64,000 nucleotides of DNA from a bacterium 1XD21-70. Its GTDB lineage: Bacteria; Bacillota; Clostridia; Lachnospirales; Lachnospiraceae. A program made the position numbers and the translations under genes. Shown piece by piece: positions 6,470-23,896 of this stretch. Each line of letters starts with the position of its first letter. The stretch's first letter is position 1. Under the pieces are notes generated by a model. That model was not told the origin of the DNA. It did not search any database and worked only from the letters and a program-made list of their open reading frames with translations. Where the stretch lies: NCBI GenBank assembly GCA_003669055.1, contig RAYB01000006.1, positions 1 through 64,000 on the forward strand, written 5' to 3'.

Positions 6470-7555
6470 CTAGTTTTCCTGTGTCACCACCCCGTCCACC
6501 ACTTTGAACAGACGGTCAATCGGAAAACGGTTATTTACAAAATCTTCCAGCCCTGTACAGGTAATCATGGTCTGGATCTGGTCGATGGCAGAGAGGAGAT
6601 GGTTCTGCCTCTCCCCATCCAATTCCGATAATACATCATCCAGCAAAAGGATCGGATAATCTTTCACTATCTTCTTCACCAGTTCAATCTCTGCCAGCTT
6701 CAAGGACAAGGCGGCTGTCCGCTGCTGTCCCTGGGACCCAAATCTCCGGATATCAATTTTATCCATATAAAAGCCTATATCATCCCGGTGCGGGCCAACT
6801 AAGCTTGTTTTCTGTTTTATATCAGAAAACCTGCTCCTTTTAATCTCTTCCTCCAGCCGGTCTGGCAAGGCACAAGGGTCATAGATGATCTTAAGATTTT
6901 CCCGGTTTCCGGAAAGCTTATTGTGTATCTTCCCGATAATGCCATTGAGCTGGGAAATAAAATCTTCCCGGTACTGGATAATCTCTCTCCCATATTGCGC
7001 TAATTGTAAATCCCATACATCCAATGTCTCTTCGTATTCCGGCCGAAAGGCAAGATCTTTCAGCAAACGATTTCTCTGCATTAAAATATGGTTATAAGAA
7101 ACCAGGGAATGGACATATAGCTTATTCAGCTGGCATAGTTCCAAATCAATGAATTTTCTCCGCTCCGAAGGGCCGTTTTTTATCAGGTTGAGATCTTCCG
7201 GTGAAAAAAAGACTACATTAATGACCCCAAACAATTCACTTGCCTTACGGATCGGGATACCATTAATGGCAATCCCTTTCGCCTTGTTTTTTTTCAGATG
7301 CATATCAATCCGATAAGGAACCTGGTCCTTACAGAGACGGATCTTTAAATGGGATTCTTCTGCCTGAAACCGGATCATTTCCCGGTCTTTGCTTCCTCTA
7401 TGGGATTTTGTTGTAGAACATACATAAATGGCTTCTAATAAATTAGTTTTTCCTTGTGCATTATTACCAAATAAGATATTGGTTTTCGGGCTGAACTGTA
7501 TATGTAAGGTATCATAATTACGGTAGTTTTTTAATTCAATCGATTCAATAATCAT
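6470..7555 (-). CDS. recF: DNA replication and repair protein RecF
   Basis: SMC-like ATPase that, with RecO and RecR, loads RecA on gapped DNA at stalled forks. Visible motifs are Walker A GNNAQGKT near the N-terminus, the ABC signature GSQGQQRT near residue 275, and Walker B LLLDDVLSELD near residue 305. The 361-residue length is typical. It sits 26 nt after yaaA and 33 nt before gyrB, in one transcription unit. Confidence 0.97.
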   Translation of the reverse strand: MIIESIELKNYRNYDTLHIQFSPKTNILFGNNAQGKTNLLEAIYVCSTTKSHRGSKDREMIRFQAEESHLKIRLCKDQVPYRIDMHLKKNKAKGIAINGIPIRKASELFGVINVVFFSPEDLNLIKNGPSERRKFIDLELCQLNKLYVHSLVSYNHILMQRNRLLKDLAFRPEYEETLDVWDLQLAQYGREIIQYREDFISQLNGIIGKIHNKLSGNRENLKIIYDPCALPDRLEEEIKRSRFSDIKQKTSLVGPHRDDIGFYMDKIDIRRFGSQGQQRTAALSLKLAEIELVKKIVKDYPILLLDDVLSELDGERQNHLLSAIDQIQTMITCTGLEDFVNNRFPIDRLFKVVDGVVTQEN

Positions 7556-7581
7556 ATTCTGTCCCCAGAACGGAAAATAAC

Positions 7582-7791
7582 TTACCCGCTGATTTGGACG
7601 GATTTGCCGTCACAGGCAAACACATCGCCATGCCGAAGCTTCTTCCCACGCTGCAACTCCACCTTTCCATTCACAGTCACAGCACCATTCTCTATCAGGT
7701 GCTTGGCATCTACACCAGAACTGCAAATGCCTGCCAGCTTCAATGCCTGGCCAAGTTTGATAAATTCATCTCTTATTTTTATAATTTCCAT
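7582..7791 (-). CDS. yaaA: S4 RNA-binding domain protein YaaA (RlbA)
   Basis: A 69-residue single S4 domain, always found between dnaN and recF in Firmicutes; its homologue in Bacillus is linked to ribosome assembly and to control of recF translation. The S4 signature is visible in VDAKHLIENGAVTVNG and KLRHGDVF. The ATG at 7791 is preferred over an in-frame TTG at 7806 because an AAAGGG site lies 6 nt upstream of the ATG and overlaps the TTG-initiated reading. Confidence 0.93.
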   Translation of the reverse strand: MEIIKIRDEFIKLGQALKLAGICSSGVDAKHLIENGAVTVNGKVELQRGKKLRHGDVFACDGKSVQISG

Positions 7792-20303: not shown

Positions 20304-20319
20304 TGTTTCACGTGAAACA
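20304..20319. other. parS site 1
   Basis: A perfect 16-bp palindrome TGTTTCACGTGAAACA, identical to the Bacillus-type parS consensus bound by ParB/Spo0J. It lies just upstream of the VOC gene and about 1.9 kb before parA. Confidence 0.95.
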
Positions 20320-21467: not shown

Positions 21468-21483
21468 TGTTTCACGTGAAACA
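21468..21483. other. parS site 2
   Basis: A second perfect TGTTTCACGTGAAACA palindrome, 692 bp before parA and 1164 bp from site 1. Two perfect copies of a 16-mer cannot be chance. Confidence 0.96.
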
Positions 21484-21539
21484 TCAATAAAAAACCCCTC
21501 CATTTATTCCGTTTATCCATATGAAAATTAATAAAAATG

Positions 21540-21548
21540 TGTTATAAT
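21540..21548 (+). promoter_or_regulatory. Extended -10 promoter reading toward parA
   Basis: TGTTATAAT (21540-21548) is a perfect extended -10 element (TGnTATAAT); no good -35 is present. It is the only clear plus-strand promoter between the parS site and parA. If it drives parAB, the leader is about 620 nt and contains the hairpin element and the tandem array. Confidence 0.5.
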
Positions 21549-21565
21549 GTACACGAAAGCGAAGA

Positions 21566-21693
21566 GCAGTGCGGAAAAAAATCATTAAGAGGCTGCGTTG
21601 TGCTCGCACAAAAGCAGCCTCTTAATGATTTTTTTCCATAGGGCCGAAGGCCCGTGAGCGAACTGGAGCGAAGCGGAAGTGAGCGGGCACTGC
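21566..21693. repeat. Nested inverted-repeat element with 24-bp perfect hairpin
   Basis: The outer arms GCAGTGC (21566-21572) and GCACTGC (21687-21693) enclose two hairpins. The first is a perfect 24-bp stem, 21573-21596 with 21614-21637, starting GGAAAAAAATC and ending in the complement, with a 17-nt loop that itself pairs TTGTG/CACAA. The second is GGGCC-GAA-GGCCC (21641-21653). The A7 and T7 tracts make the first stem look like a bidirectional terminator. The order suggests a three-way junction or a miniature mobile element. No transposase or target duplication is seen. Confidence 0.75.
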
Positions 21694-21720
21694 GGAGTAG
21701 AAATCAAGCGAGTTAGGAAA

Positions 21721-22106
21721 AAGCGAAGGCAAAGCCGAGCCAGCAAGAAAAAGCGAAGGCGAAGCCGAGCCAGCAAGAAAAAGCGAAGGCAAAGCCGAGC
21801 CAGCAAGAAAAAGCGAAGGCAAAGCCGAGCCAGCAAGAAAAAGCGAAGGCAAAGCCGAGCCAGCAAGAAAAAGCGAAGGCAAAGCCGAGCCAGCAGGAAA
21901 AGCGAAGGCAAAGCCGAGCCAGCAGGGAAAGCGAAGGCAAAGCCGAGCCAGCAGGGAAAGCGAAGGCAAAGCCGAGCCAGCAGGGAAAGCGAAGGCAAAG
22001 CCGAGCCAGCAGAAAAAGCCGAAGGCAAAGCCGAGCCAGCAGAAAAAGCCGAAGGCAAAGCCGAGCCAGCAGAAAAAGCGAGTGCAAAGCCGAGCCAACA
22101 AGAAAA
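21721..22106. repeat. Tandem array of thirteen 29-30-bp units upstream of parA
   Basis: Thirteen head-to-tail copies. Units 1-6 are 30 bp (core AAGCGAAGGCAAAGCCGAGC), units 7-10 are 29 bp, units 11-13 are 30 bp. Most units differ at 0-3 positions; the last is the most diverged (AGTGC, CCAAC). No stop codon occurs in several frames on either strand, so long open frames cross it, but the 29-bp units shift frame, so it is not a conserved repeat protein. No spacers, so not CRISPR. Downstream, 22107-22175 holds only the parA leader and its AAAAGGA site. Confidence 0.95.
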
Positions 22107-22175
22107 AGCAAGAATCCCCACCCCCCTCTAACCCTCAAAAAAACAAAGGTAGATAACAAATTAAAAGGAAAAAAC

Positions 22176-22943
22176 ATGGGAAGAATAATAGCAATTGCAA
22201 ACCAAAAAGGCGGAGTTGGCAAGACAACTACCGCGATCAACCTCTCCGCATGCCTTGCAGAAGCAGGACAAAGAGTATTAACTGTAGATTTCGACCCACA
22301 AGGAAACGCCACCAGCGGCCTAGGGTTTGAAAAAGGATACATGGACAAAACAGTTTACGAATTACTAATGGGAGAGTGTGAGATCCATGAATGCATTATC
22401 CAGGAAGTACAAAAAAATCTAGACATCCTACCATCTGATGTGGATTTAGCAGGGGCAGAAATAGAACTACTCGATGAAAAAGAAAAAGAAGCAAAACTCC
22501 GAAAAGAGTTAGATAAGATAGAAGCAAAATACGATTTCATAATCGTAGACTGCCCGCCATCTTTAAACCTTTTAACAATCAATGCCCTAACAGCAGCAGA
22601 TACCGTACTTGTCCCAATCCAATGCGAATATTATGCCCTAGAAGGGCTAAGCCAGATCATCCAAACCGTAGATTTGGTAAAAAAGAAACTAAACCCCAAA
22701 CTAGAACTAGAAGGCGTAGTTTTCACCATGTATGATGCAAGGACAAACCTTTCCTTAGAAGTAGTAGAAAATGTAAAAAACTACCTAAAAGGAACAATCT
22801 ACAAAACCATTATCCCAAGAAATGTAAGGCTTGCAGAGGCTCCAAGCCACGGAATGCCGATCAATCTTTATGACAACCGTTCGGCAGGGGCAGAAAGTTA
22901 CCGGATGTTGGCAGCAGAAGTGATCAGCAGAGGAGAAGTTTGA
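22176..22943 (+). CDS. parA: Chromosome partitioning ATPase ParA (Soj)
   Basis: Deviant-Walker ATPase that works with ParB and parS in origin segregation and, in Bacillus, controls DnaA. The P-loop is NQKGGVGKTTTAINL at residues 9-23, with the signature lysine, followed by VDFDPQGNATSG and the VDCPPSL box. The 255-residue length is typical. It overlaps the region before parB by sharing the stop. Codon use in about the first 220 residues is unusual: many CTA, CCA and C-ending codons and C over G on a leading-strand gene, unlike parB and the genes after it. Confidence 0.96.
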   Translation: MGRIIAIANQKGGVGKTTTAINLSACLAEAGQRVLTVDFDPQGNATSGLGFEKGYMDKTVYELLMGECEIHECIIQEVQKNLDILPSDVDLAGAEIELLDEKEKEAKLRKELDKIEAKYDFIIVDCPPSLNLLTINALTAADTVLVPIQCEYYALEGLSQIIQTVDLVKKKLNPKLELEGVVFTMYDARTNLSLEVVENVKNYLKGTIYKTIIPRNVRLAEAPSHGMPINLYDNRSAGAESYRMLAAEVISRGEV

Positions 22944-22945
22944 TT

Positions 22946-23896
22946 ATGGCAAAAGCAAAACGCGGATTAGGGAAAGGATTAGGGGCTTTTTTTGGGGAAG
23001 AGGTAGTTCAGGAAGTAACAAAAGACCAGGAGAATGAAAAAAAAGAAATAACATCAGAGAAAGATGATAATATAGCAGCAAAAGAAAATGAGGCAGAGAA
23101 CGAAAGCGGGGAGTTTTTTATCAAGATTTCCAGGATCGAACCAAACAGAGAACAGCCCCGGAAAGACTTTTCAGAAGAACAGTTACAGGAATTGGCAGAT
23201 TCCATCCGTCAATACGGCGTACTCCAGCCCTTATTAGTACAGAAAAAAGGGGATTTATATGAGATCGTTGCCGGAGAACGGCGTTGGCGTGCGGCTAAAA
23301 TGGCAGGCCTTAAAGAAATTCCGGTGGTGGTGCGGGAGTACGGAAAACAACAGGCAATGGAGATTGCACTGATCGAGAATGTGCAGAGAGAGGATTTAAA
23401 CCCAATTGAAGAGGCTGTTGCCTATCAAAGGCTGATGCAGGAATTCCATTTAAAACAGGAAGAGATTGCGGAAAGAGTTTCAAAGAACCGTTCCACAATT
23501 ACAAATAGCATGCGTCTGCTAAATTTGGTGCCAGAGATTCAGCAAATGCTGATTGACGGGTTGATAAGCAGCGGCCACGCCAGGGCTTTGTTAGCGGTAC
23601 CTGATCCTGCCCAGCAGCTGGCATTAGCAGAGAGAATCATAAAAGACCATTTAAGTGTAAGGGAAGTAGAAAAAGCAGTTAAAGCTTTAGGAAAAATACA
23701 AAAAGAAAAGAAAAAAGAAAAAGAAGATGAAGCCCTGGAATTGATTTTTAAAAATCTTGAAGAAAGAATGAAAACAGTAGTAGGGACAAAAGTAAATATT
23801 AACCGCAAAGACCGCAGCAAGGGGAAGATTGAGATAGAATATTATTCGGAGGCCGAATTGGAAAGAATTGTTGAATTGATAGAAACAATAGGATAG
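22946..23896 (+). CDS. parB: Chromosome partitioning protein ParB (Spo0J)
   Basis: CTP-switch clamp that loads at parS. It has an N-terminal ParA-stimulating stretch (KAKRGLGKGLGAFF), a Lys/Glu-rich linker, the ParB/Srx CTPase fold with GERRWRAAK, a helix-turn-helix that reads parS (about 160-220) and a C-terminal dimer domain. The ATG at 22946, two bases after the parA stop, has AGGAG 10 nt upstream; the in-frame TTG at 22940 lies too close. Its sites are the two parS palindromes upstream. Confidence 0.96.
   Translation: MAKAKRGLGKGLGAFFGEEVVQEVTKDQENEKKEITSEKDDNIAAKENEAENESGEFFIKISRIEPNREQPRKDFSEEQLQELADSIRQYGVLQPLLVQKKGDLYEIVAGERRWRAAKMAGLKEIPVVVREYGKQQAMEIALIENVQREDLNPIEEAVAYQRLMQEFHLKQEEIAERVSKNRSTITNSMRLLNLVPEIQQMLIDGLISSGHARALLAVPDPAQQLALAERIIKDHLSVREVEKAVKALGKIQKEKKKEKEDEALELIFKNLEERMKTVVGTKVNINRKDRSKGKIEIEYYSEAELERIVELIETIG

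Follow-up and report, generated by a model that had tools for sequence, protein, structure and literature searches.

The pneumococcal BOX, RUP and SPRITE repeats are short, interspersed and folded, and operon transcripts can include them as extensions at the 5′ and 3′ ends; insertion of a repeat into leaders is known for BOX (PMC3049150). Other repeats in transcribed regions, REP/BIME, ERIC and Correia, are said to be attenuators, cleavage sites or promoters (PMC3049150). In the Bacillus cereus group, bcr1-bcr18 are dispersed repeats of 100-400 bp with mobile features, of which bcr1 averages 39 copies per strain (PMC6542083). The Clostridiales-1 class was listed in 2010 as a probable RNA, with cis-regulation marked 'n' and, in the accessible part of the source, without a function given (PMC2864571); Rfam types the corresponding family, RF01699, as sRNA.

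We analyzed a window of 64,000 nt, i.e., the whole stretch of DNA at positions 1-64,000 (forward strand) of contig RAYB01000006.1 from bacterium 1XD21-70 (Lachnospiraceae; assembly GCA_003669055.1). The window contains two exact parS sites (20304-20319 and 21468-21483; 0.01 expected), and the extended -10 sequence TGTTATAAT, a 24-bp hairpin and an array of 13 tandem units are all found between the second parS site and parA. Our comparisons make it very probable that a dispersed, Clostridiales-1-related RNA of ~146 nt was inserted behind a native parA promoter that has been kept, and that this RNA now heads the parAB transcript. The features are as follows:

21468..21483, strand not assigned: second parS site TGTTTCACGTGAAACA, exact match
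21521..21548, + strand: putative native parA promoter, -35-like ATGAAA and extended -10 TGTTATAAT (21540-21548); promoter scan, geometry common to 18/19 congeneric parA loci
21552..21697, + strand: structured RNA element of the R1 family (Clostridiales-1-like); 151.1 bits with R1 (a score on a training sequence, as the window copy belongs to the R1 training set), 44.5 bits with RF01699 at 21566-21693, BLASTN relatives in own genome and genus
21566..21572, + strand: P1 5′ strand GCAGUGC, pairs with 21687-21693; alignment A1
21573..21596, + strand: P2 5′ arm, 24 nt, pairs with 21614-21637; 24/24 pairs in the window copy
21597..21613, + strand: conserved P2 loop GUUGUGCUCGCACAAAA with inner hairpin; alignment A1
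21614..21637, + strand: P2 3′ arm, holding the T tract; folding, pair count, covariation
21641..21653, + strand: P3 hairpin (GGGC/GCCC), invariant in 20 copies
21658..21684, + strand: P4 hairpin with GA-rich internal loops; covariation in 20 copies
21687..21693, + strand: P1 3′ strand GCACUGC; alignment and covariation
21717..22109, strand not assigned: tandem array, 13 units of 29-30 bp, non-coding; TRF score 637
22176..22943, + strand: parA; relatives found by ParA search, name from sequence
22940..23896, + strand: parB, 318-aa ORF after parA; name from position and sequence reading

The parA promoter and its long leader

It had been proposed in the initial annotation that parAB may be transcribed through a long leader that contains a structured element and a tandem array. 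The extended -10 at 21540-21548, the 24-bp hairpin, the 13 tandem units and the non-coding character of the stretch from the -10 to parA (627 nt) are all confirmed in the sequence. The further claim was that this is the only clear plus-strand promoter between the second parS site and parA. The promoter scan gives ATGAAA-16-TATAAT (10/12 matches, with TG) and no rival, except for one plus-strand site between parS and parA, the second hexamer of which is located inside parA; however, the scan detected 7 promoter-like sites versus 8.9 in shuffles, i.e., no excess. Because the motif scan alone is no better than chance, the promoter claim rests on comparison.

A ParA search (cut-off E <= 1e-100) yielded matches in 19 of the 24 genomes of the genus, own genome included, and none in the other 5. 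In 18 of the 19 loci, parA is preceded by a TA(T/G)GAA-like box, a constant gap and TGnTATAmT, the sole exception being G019, which has a TATAAT-like sequence without TGn. In the window, 627 nt separate the -10 from the start codon, compared to 39-172 nt in the 17 other congeners. G018, the closest relative by ParA (97%), has a leader of 168 nt, in which the element was searched for and not found; the leaders of the parA relatives are too diverged to place the 3′ edge of the insertion. Of the named parA loci, 79 have 150 nt or more of upstream sequence; 59 of these have a TGnTATAmT-like site within 400 nt before parA, at a median distance of 50 nt, and 20 do not. The comparison, with the promoter geometry kept in 18/19 congeneric loci, supports a real parA leader through which parAB would be transcribed, as the initial annotation suggested.

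The 24-bp hairpin is one helix (P2) of the multi-helix element of ~146 nt that recurs in the genome and in the genus and was overlooked at first. In the window, all 24 pairs of P2 are Watson-Crick pairs (-44.2 kcal/mol, z -9.8). The hairpin had been described as having a T7 tract; the A and T tracts are located within the stem, so that the free U-tail of a textbook terminator is absent. The P2 hairpin is not listed by the terminator scan, and the Rfam scan of the window at gathering scores returned tRNA only. A role of the P2 arm as an antisense guide was considered and rejected, as the 15-nt core of the arm occurs nowhere else in the genome, even with one mismatch allowed.

The array (13.3 copies according to TRF) has spacings of 30 nt five times, 29 nt five times and 30 nt twice. 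The five 29-nt units break the frame, so that ORFs over the array are not maintained and a coding array is ruled out. Derivation of the array from the element is weak, given that 23 of 500 shuffles score as high. Among the 67 sites of the element described below, a tandem array is found downstream of it at 9 and upstream at none. At one locus (L162, G017:C20), a 79-bp tandem array downstream of the element includes part of the 3′ half of the element; thus, arrays can include element sequence.

A dispersed RNA family related to Clostridiales-1

Apart from the self-match and the inverted match of the hairpin, BLASTN with the leader hit two more places in the own genome, and it yielded matches in 16 of the 24 genomes of the genus, own included. 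The R1 covariance model matched the own genome at 4 places, and it had matches in all 24 genomes of the genus and in 62 of 120 genomes drawn from the family, own genome included; summed over the per-genome figures, there are 174 matches in the genus and another 252 in other genomes of the family.

Twenty copies align gap-free over P2. In these copies, 31 of 46 pairs change on both sides, and 97.1% of cells are paired, compared to 37.7-49.5% in slid controls. Covariation is found in 23 of the 24 pairs of P2 and, in the P4 region, in all 5 pairs of helix 5 and in neither of the 2 pairs of helix 6. Loops and junctions are conserved beyond the helices, and P2 ends in A/T tracts in most of the 20 copies, the T-tract being absent from L017 and L025. 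In the larger set of 97 R1 matches, the alignment of which was itself fitted to the model, covariation extends to 44 of 46 pairs. Wobble counts, which come from related copies and hence are not independent events, are 18 for G-U versus 2 for A-C in the 20 copies, and 57 versus 20 in 86 copies; the excess of G-U over A-C is as expected if the plus-strand RNA is selected.

The RF01699 model scored 44.5 bits against the window (E 1.7e-8 in 696 bases) and did not reach its gathering score of 48; the window copy aligns end to end with model positions 1-166, and the helix order and the loop motif agree. Applied to 15 loci at E <= 1, RF01699 matched four (L028, 43.0 bits; L027, 39.4; L021, 38; L012, 35.1). 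In a search of the genomes of the genus, 20 of 24 had matches, 14 of them above the cut-off; nothing was listed in the own genome, so the window copy was missed by that search. The R1 model matched 7 of 23 canonical Clostridiales-1 loci, at 18.6-21.8 bits. Because the window copy stays below 48 bits and R1 scores at most 21.8 bits on canonical loci, we regard the element as a related subfamily, and not a member, of Clostridiales-1.

The canonical Clostridiales-1 copies have 6-8-nt flanking direct repeats in 9 of the 11 loci (out of 23) in which the 3′ end motif was found, versus 1.6% of mismatched pairs with repeats of 5 nt or more, and their end motif TGATnnnnGGGTCAAAAGGT is found again in 15 of 24 genomes. 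Such direct repeats, together with inverted ends, are seen in L131, L132, L134, L135, L140, L151, L152, L154 and L157. From their sequences, canonical copies look like miniature transposable elements. Several are positioned at a stop codon or, by eye, directly after a terminator-like T-run (L133, L136, L140, L158, L159; L153, L137, L138, L141). A stretch like the 3′ end of a canonical element is located, by eye, between parS and parA in G019 (L119). A GA-cis RNA (RF02987, 74.8 bits) at 2598-2682 of L185 (the same place as 2597-2681 of L020) is found ~1 kb from a copy of the element.

At parA itself, the element is exceptional. Across 99 parA loci (80 named and 19 from the genus, a few of which hold little or no sequence before parA, L093 none), an R1 copy before parA is present in one, the window's own, which argues against an old parAB attenuator. 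Two R1 matches elsewhere near parA are not leader copies: that in L085 (84.8 bits, 7552-7692) is downstream of parA, and that in L051 is weak and partial (25.8 bits), on the opposite strand and ~850 nt before parA. The parA leaders of G018, G023 and G014 were also examined for decayed elements, and these loci had no Rfam match at E 0.5.

Placement behind -10 hexamers and at stop codons

For the first analysis of positions, we used 86 copies at >=61.1 bits (76 from the genus and 10 from the family), clustered into 67 sites; the clustering is imperfect, as L188, L264 and L004 have similar upstream genes and yet fall in three clusters. Another 39 loci from the family, left out at first and not clustered, served as the held-out set. 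Secondary matches in the same locus were dropped (11 of 97 matches, and 2 of 41 in the held-out set), and genes were called by codon score, not by annotation. The 67 sites comprise 27 promoter-type sites, defined by a regular expression, 28 stop-type sites and 12 others. A TATAAT-like hexamer (up to one mismatch) ends 3 nt before the element at 20 of the 67 sites and 2 nt before it at 6; each other offset has 0-4 sites. Among the 34 non-promoter sites with an upstream gene on the same strand, the stop codon is within 20 nt before the start of the element or inside the element in 29, versus 6.1 expected under uniform placement, with 300 nt assumed where no downstream gene was called; one of the overlaps is 36 nt.

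We also used a boundary test, in which the 5′ end of the element was examined on the sense strand for a -10-like hexamer within 6 nt, or for the stop of a frame of at least 80 codons. The -10 was found at 29 of the 67 sites and the stop at 33 (both at 7, either at 55), compared to 1 and 6 (either at 7) in the mirror control, i.e., the 3′ end on the opposite strand. For random positions in the same loci, 3.5% passed the -10 test and 7% the stop test. In the held-out set, the -10 was found at 15 of the 39 loci and the stop at 18 (both at 3, either at 30), compared to 4 and 5 (either at 9) in the mirror control. Of the 9 held-out copies found at neither boundary, two begin directly after tRNA genes on the same strand: L207 (1501-1643, minus strand), 3 nt after the 3′ end of tRNA-Pro, and L216 (1501-1635, plus strand), 1 nt after that of tRNA-Arg. 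The tRNA 3′ end is a possible third type of boundary.

The next called gene is co-directional at all 26 promoter-type sites that have one (one further site has no called gene), and 5 of the 28 stop-type sites precede a convergent gene. A few copies are positioned after terminator T-runs. Weaker termination in promoter-type copies was considered and not supported, as the T-runs of the 3′ arm do not differ significantly from those of stop-type copies (p 0.23). Pfam searches covered 24 of the 26 proteins downstream of promoter-type copies (4 without match) and 6 of the 28 proteins upstream of stop-type copies; glnS, parA, atpB, dnaB and gltD were named by eye. The promoter-type neighbors include NAD synthase, a MutS-domain protein, D-Ala-D-Ala ligase, SAICAR synthetase, CbiD, CbiK, an iron hydrogenase-domain protein, histidine kinases and an Asp23 protein, and the stop-type neighbors include SpoIVA, SpoIIP, ribosomal protein L17, an ABC transporter and a FabG-like reductase. 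No pathway common to the genes beside the copies is visible.

Several genes could be compared between genomes with and without the element; because they were chosen from element-bearing loci, the comparison shows the anatomy of occupied sites and not their frequency. At mutS2, G017 carries the element. The motif TGnTA(T/C)A(A/C)T is located no more than 200 nt from the start in 20 of the 21 other orthologous loci, in which no element leader was seen by eye; G019 lacks the motif. In G002 (L338), a different hairpin, possibly another type of element, directly follows the mutS2 -10 hexamer, by eye. At glnS, the element of G017 is located behind a promoter that is closely matched in G012 (TGTGATATAATGTC). 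The glnS motif is present in 9 of 23 loci, G017 included (8 of the 22 others), and absent from 14 in the upstream sequence searched (up to 330 nt), several of which have a tRNA gene there instead. At these promoter-type sites and at parA, the sequences suggest that the promoter exists without the element, most clearly for parA and mutS2. At stop-type sites, all 23 SpoIVA proteins found end in GG(M/L/V)ICIII, and the element directly follows the spoIVA stop codon in G003, G004, G014, G016 and G023, with other sequence in the rest; decayed copies seem to follow it in G011 and G012. Among 18 atpB loci read, the element is positioned at the stop codon in G016, and those of G013 and G015 hold what look like its remnants; as with SpoIVA, relatives that lack the element retain the end of the AtpB protein.

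Target-site duplications are not above chance in the R1 subfamily (37 sites at >=100 bits, shared word of at least 6 nt): with three flank sizes, 2, 3 and 4 shared words were found versus 0.85, 1.5 and 4.8 expected. The case for mobility, therefore, rests on dispersal, i.e., the 67 clusters of non-orthologous sites, and on private sites.

Proposed origin, alternatives and known repeats

According to the reading that we consider very probable, the element would have been inserted 3 nt downstream of the -10 hexamer of the native parA promoter. Because this promoter was kept, the element would now be the first part of the parAB transcript, followed by the copy-specific array, the ribosome-binding site and parA. 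Transcription from the native promoter would start at ~21554-21556, within the first bases of the element, and read through P2 into parAB; the 5′ end of the mRNA would fold into P1 to P4, and the RNA would run on through the array, which presumably arose with or after the insertion. Such a portable, tightly folded 5′ end may change the stability of the mRNA or cause partial termination, and this appears to be the most likely effect, as opposed to a ligand- or segregation-responsive switch. Hairpins at the 5′ end of an mRNA or just after a stop codon protect RNA from exonucleases. The favored positions of the element are those where hairpins have this effect; thus, an effect on stability may reasonably be guessed first, the alternative being partial termination at P2. 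P2 looks like a bidirectional terminator and, without read-through, genes such as glnS would be cut off; attenuation is possible as a side effect.

A cis-regulatory attenuator of parAB, in which P2 terminates and a protein or ligand at the conserved loops, or coupling to translation, permits read-through, would agree with the conservation of loops and junctions beyond the helices, with the A/T tracts that end P2 in most of the 20 copies, and with the co-directional gene at 26/26 promoter-type sites that have a called downstream gene. It is nevertheless unlikely, considering that the element is present at 1 of 99 parA loci, that the neighbor genes of the copies have no common pathway, that about as many sites are directly at stop codons, and that L017 and L025 have no T-tract; moreover, the sequences of the P2 arms vary wholly, so that no conserved anti-terminator partner is seen. 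The same count of 1/99, together with the dispersal of the element at many unrelated genes, speaks against the earlier proposal of an RNA control device for chromosome segregation; the comparison of the locus among relatives, suggested there as a check, recovers the promoter in 18/19 congeneric loci and the element in that of the window alone.

If the element were an sRNA gene with a promoter of its own, located before parA by chance alone, the 27/67 promoter-type sites, the sRNA type of RF01699 and the 'n' for cis-regulation (PMC2864571) would be accounted for. This is doubtful in view of the promoter present in element-free relatives at parA, mutS2 and some glnS loci, of the 28/67 stop-type sites, and of the sequence upstream of the -10, which, by eye, is not common between loci, orthologous ones excepted. 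Selection at gene ends for a hairpin repeat that serves as a bidirectional terminator or insulator is improbable for other reasons: 27 of 67 sites are between a promoter and a gene, glnS, mutS2 and parA included, and P3, P4 and the loops, needless for a terminator, are conserved. The perfect 24-bp hairpin with A/T tracts, the positions at stop codons and, in a few cases, after terminator T-runs, and the convergent gene following 5/28 stop-type sites are in its favor.

A broader and tentative idea is that a clan of structured RNAs in this bacterial family spreads in sense orientation and joins host genes, almost to the base, at the borders of untranslated RNA: at the stop codon, ~3 nt behind the -10 and perhaps at the 3′ ends of tRNAs. 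Insertion would then be coupled to transcription or proceed through an RNA intermediate. A point ~3 nt behind the -10 is within the region melted by RNA polymerase, and insertion there would leave promoter and protein intact. If this is true, these elements would be a bacterial counterpart of SINEs, each insertion making a new structured leader or 3′ segment. The insertion considered very probable above would make the apparently unique parAB leader one case of a general process that gives genes long structured leaders. The analysis adds position data for a relative of Clostridiales-1 and evidence that canonical copies carry flanking direct repeats.

The initial annotation also stated that no system of this form had been described. 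This applies to the placement, in that no report of such an element at a -10 or a stop codon was found in the open-licence literature searched; the RNA, however, is related to Clostridiales-1, and insertion into leaders is described for BOX (PMC3049150). Like the window element, Clostridiales-1 has a closing P1, a long hairpin with a GUGCUYGCAC loop, a small hairpin and a GA-rich hairpin, and, like the R1 family, it is multi-copy within the genus; flanking direct repeats and inverted ends are seen in canonical copies of the TGATACC form and not in the R1 subfamily. The bcr repeats, likened by description only, are tied to a TTTAT motif, unlike R1 (PMC6542083). REP/BIME, ERIC and Correia are different elements from R1, which they resemble by analogy alone. 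The BOX, RUP and SPRITE repeats differ from R1 in sequence and structure, and the accessible part of PMC3049150 does not describe placement at a -10 or a stop codon; the likeness is one of description, not of comparison. BOX consists of modular repeated units, a further point of likeness (PMC3049150), and BOX repeats are the best analogue of the R1 elements.
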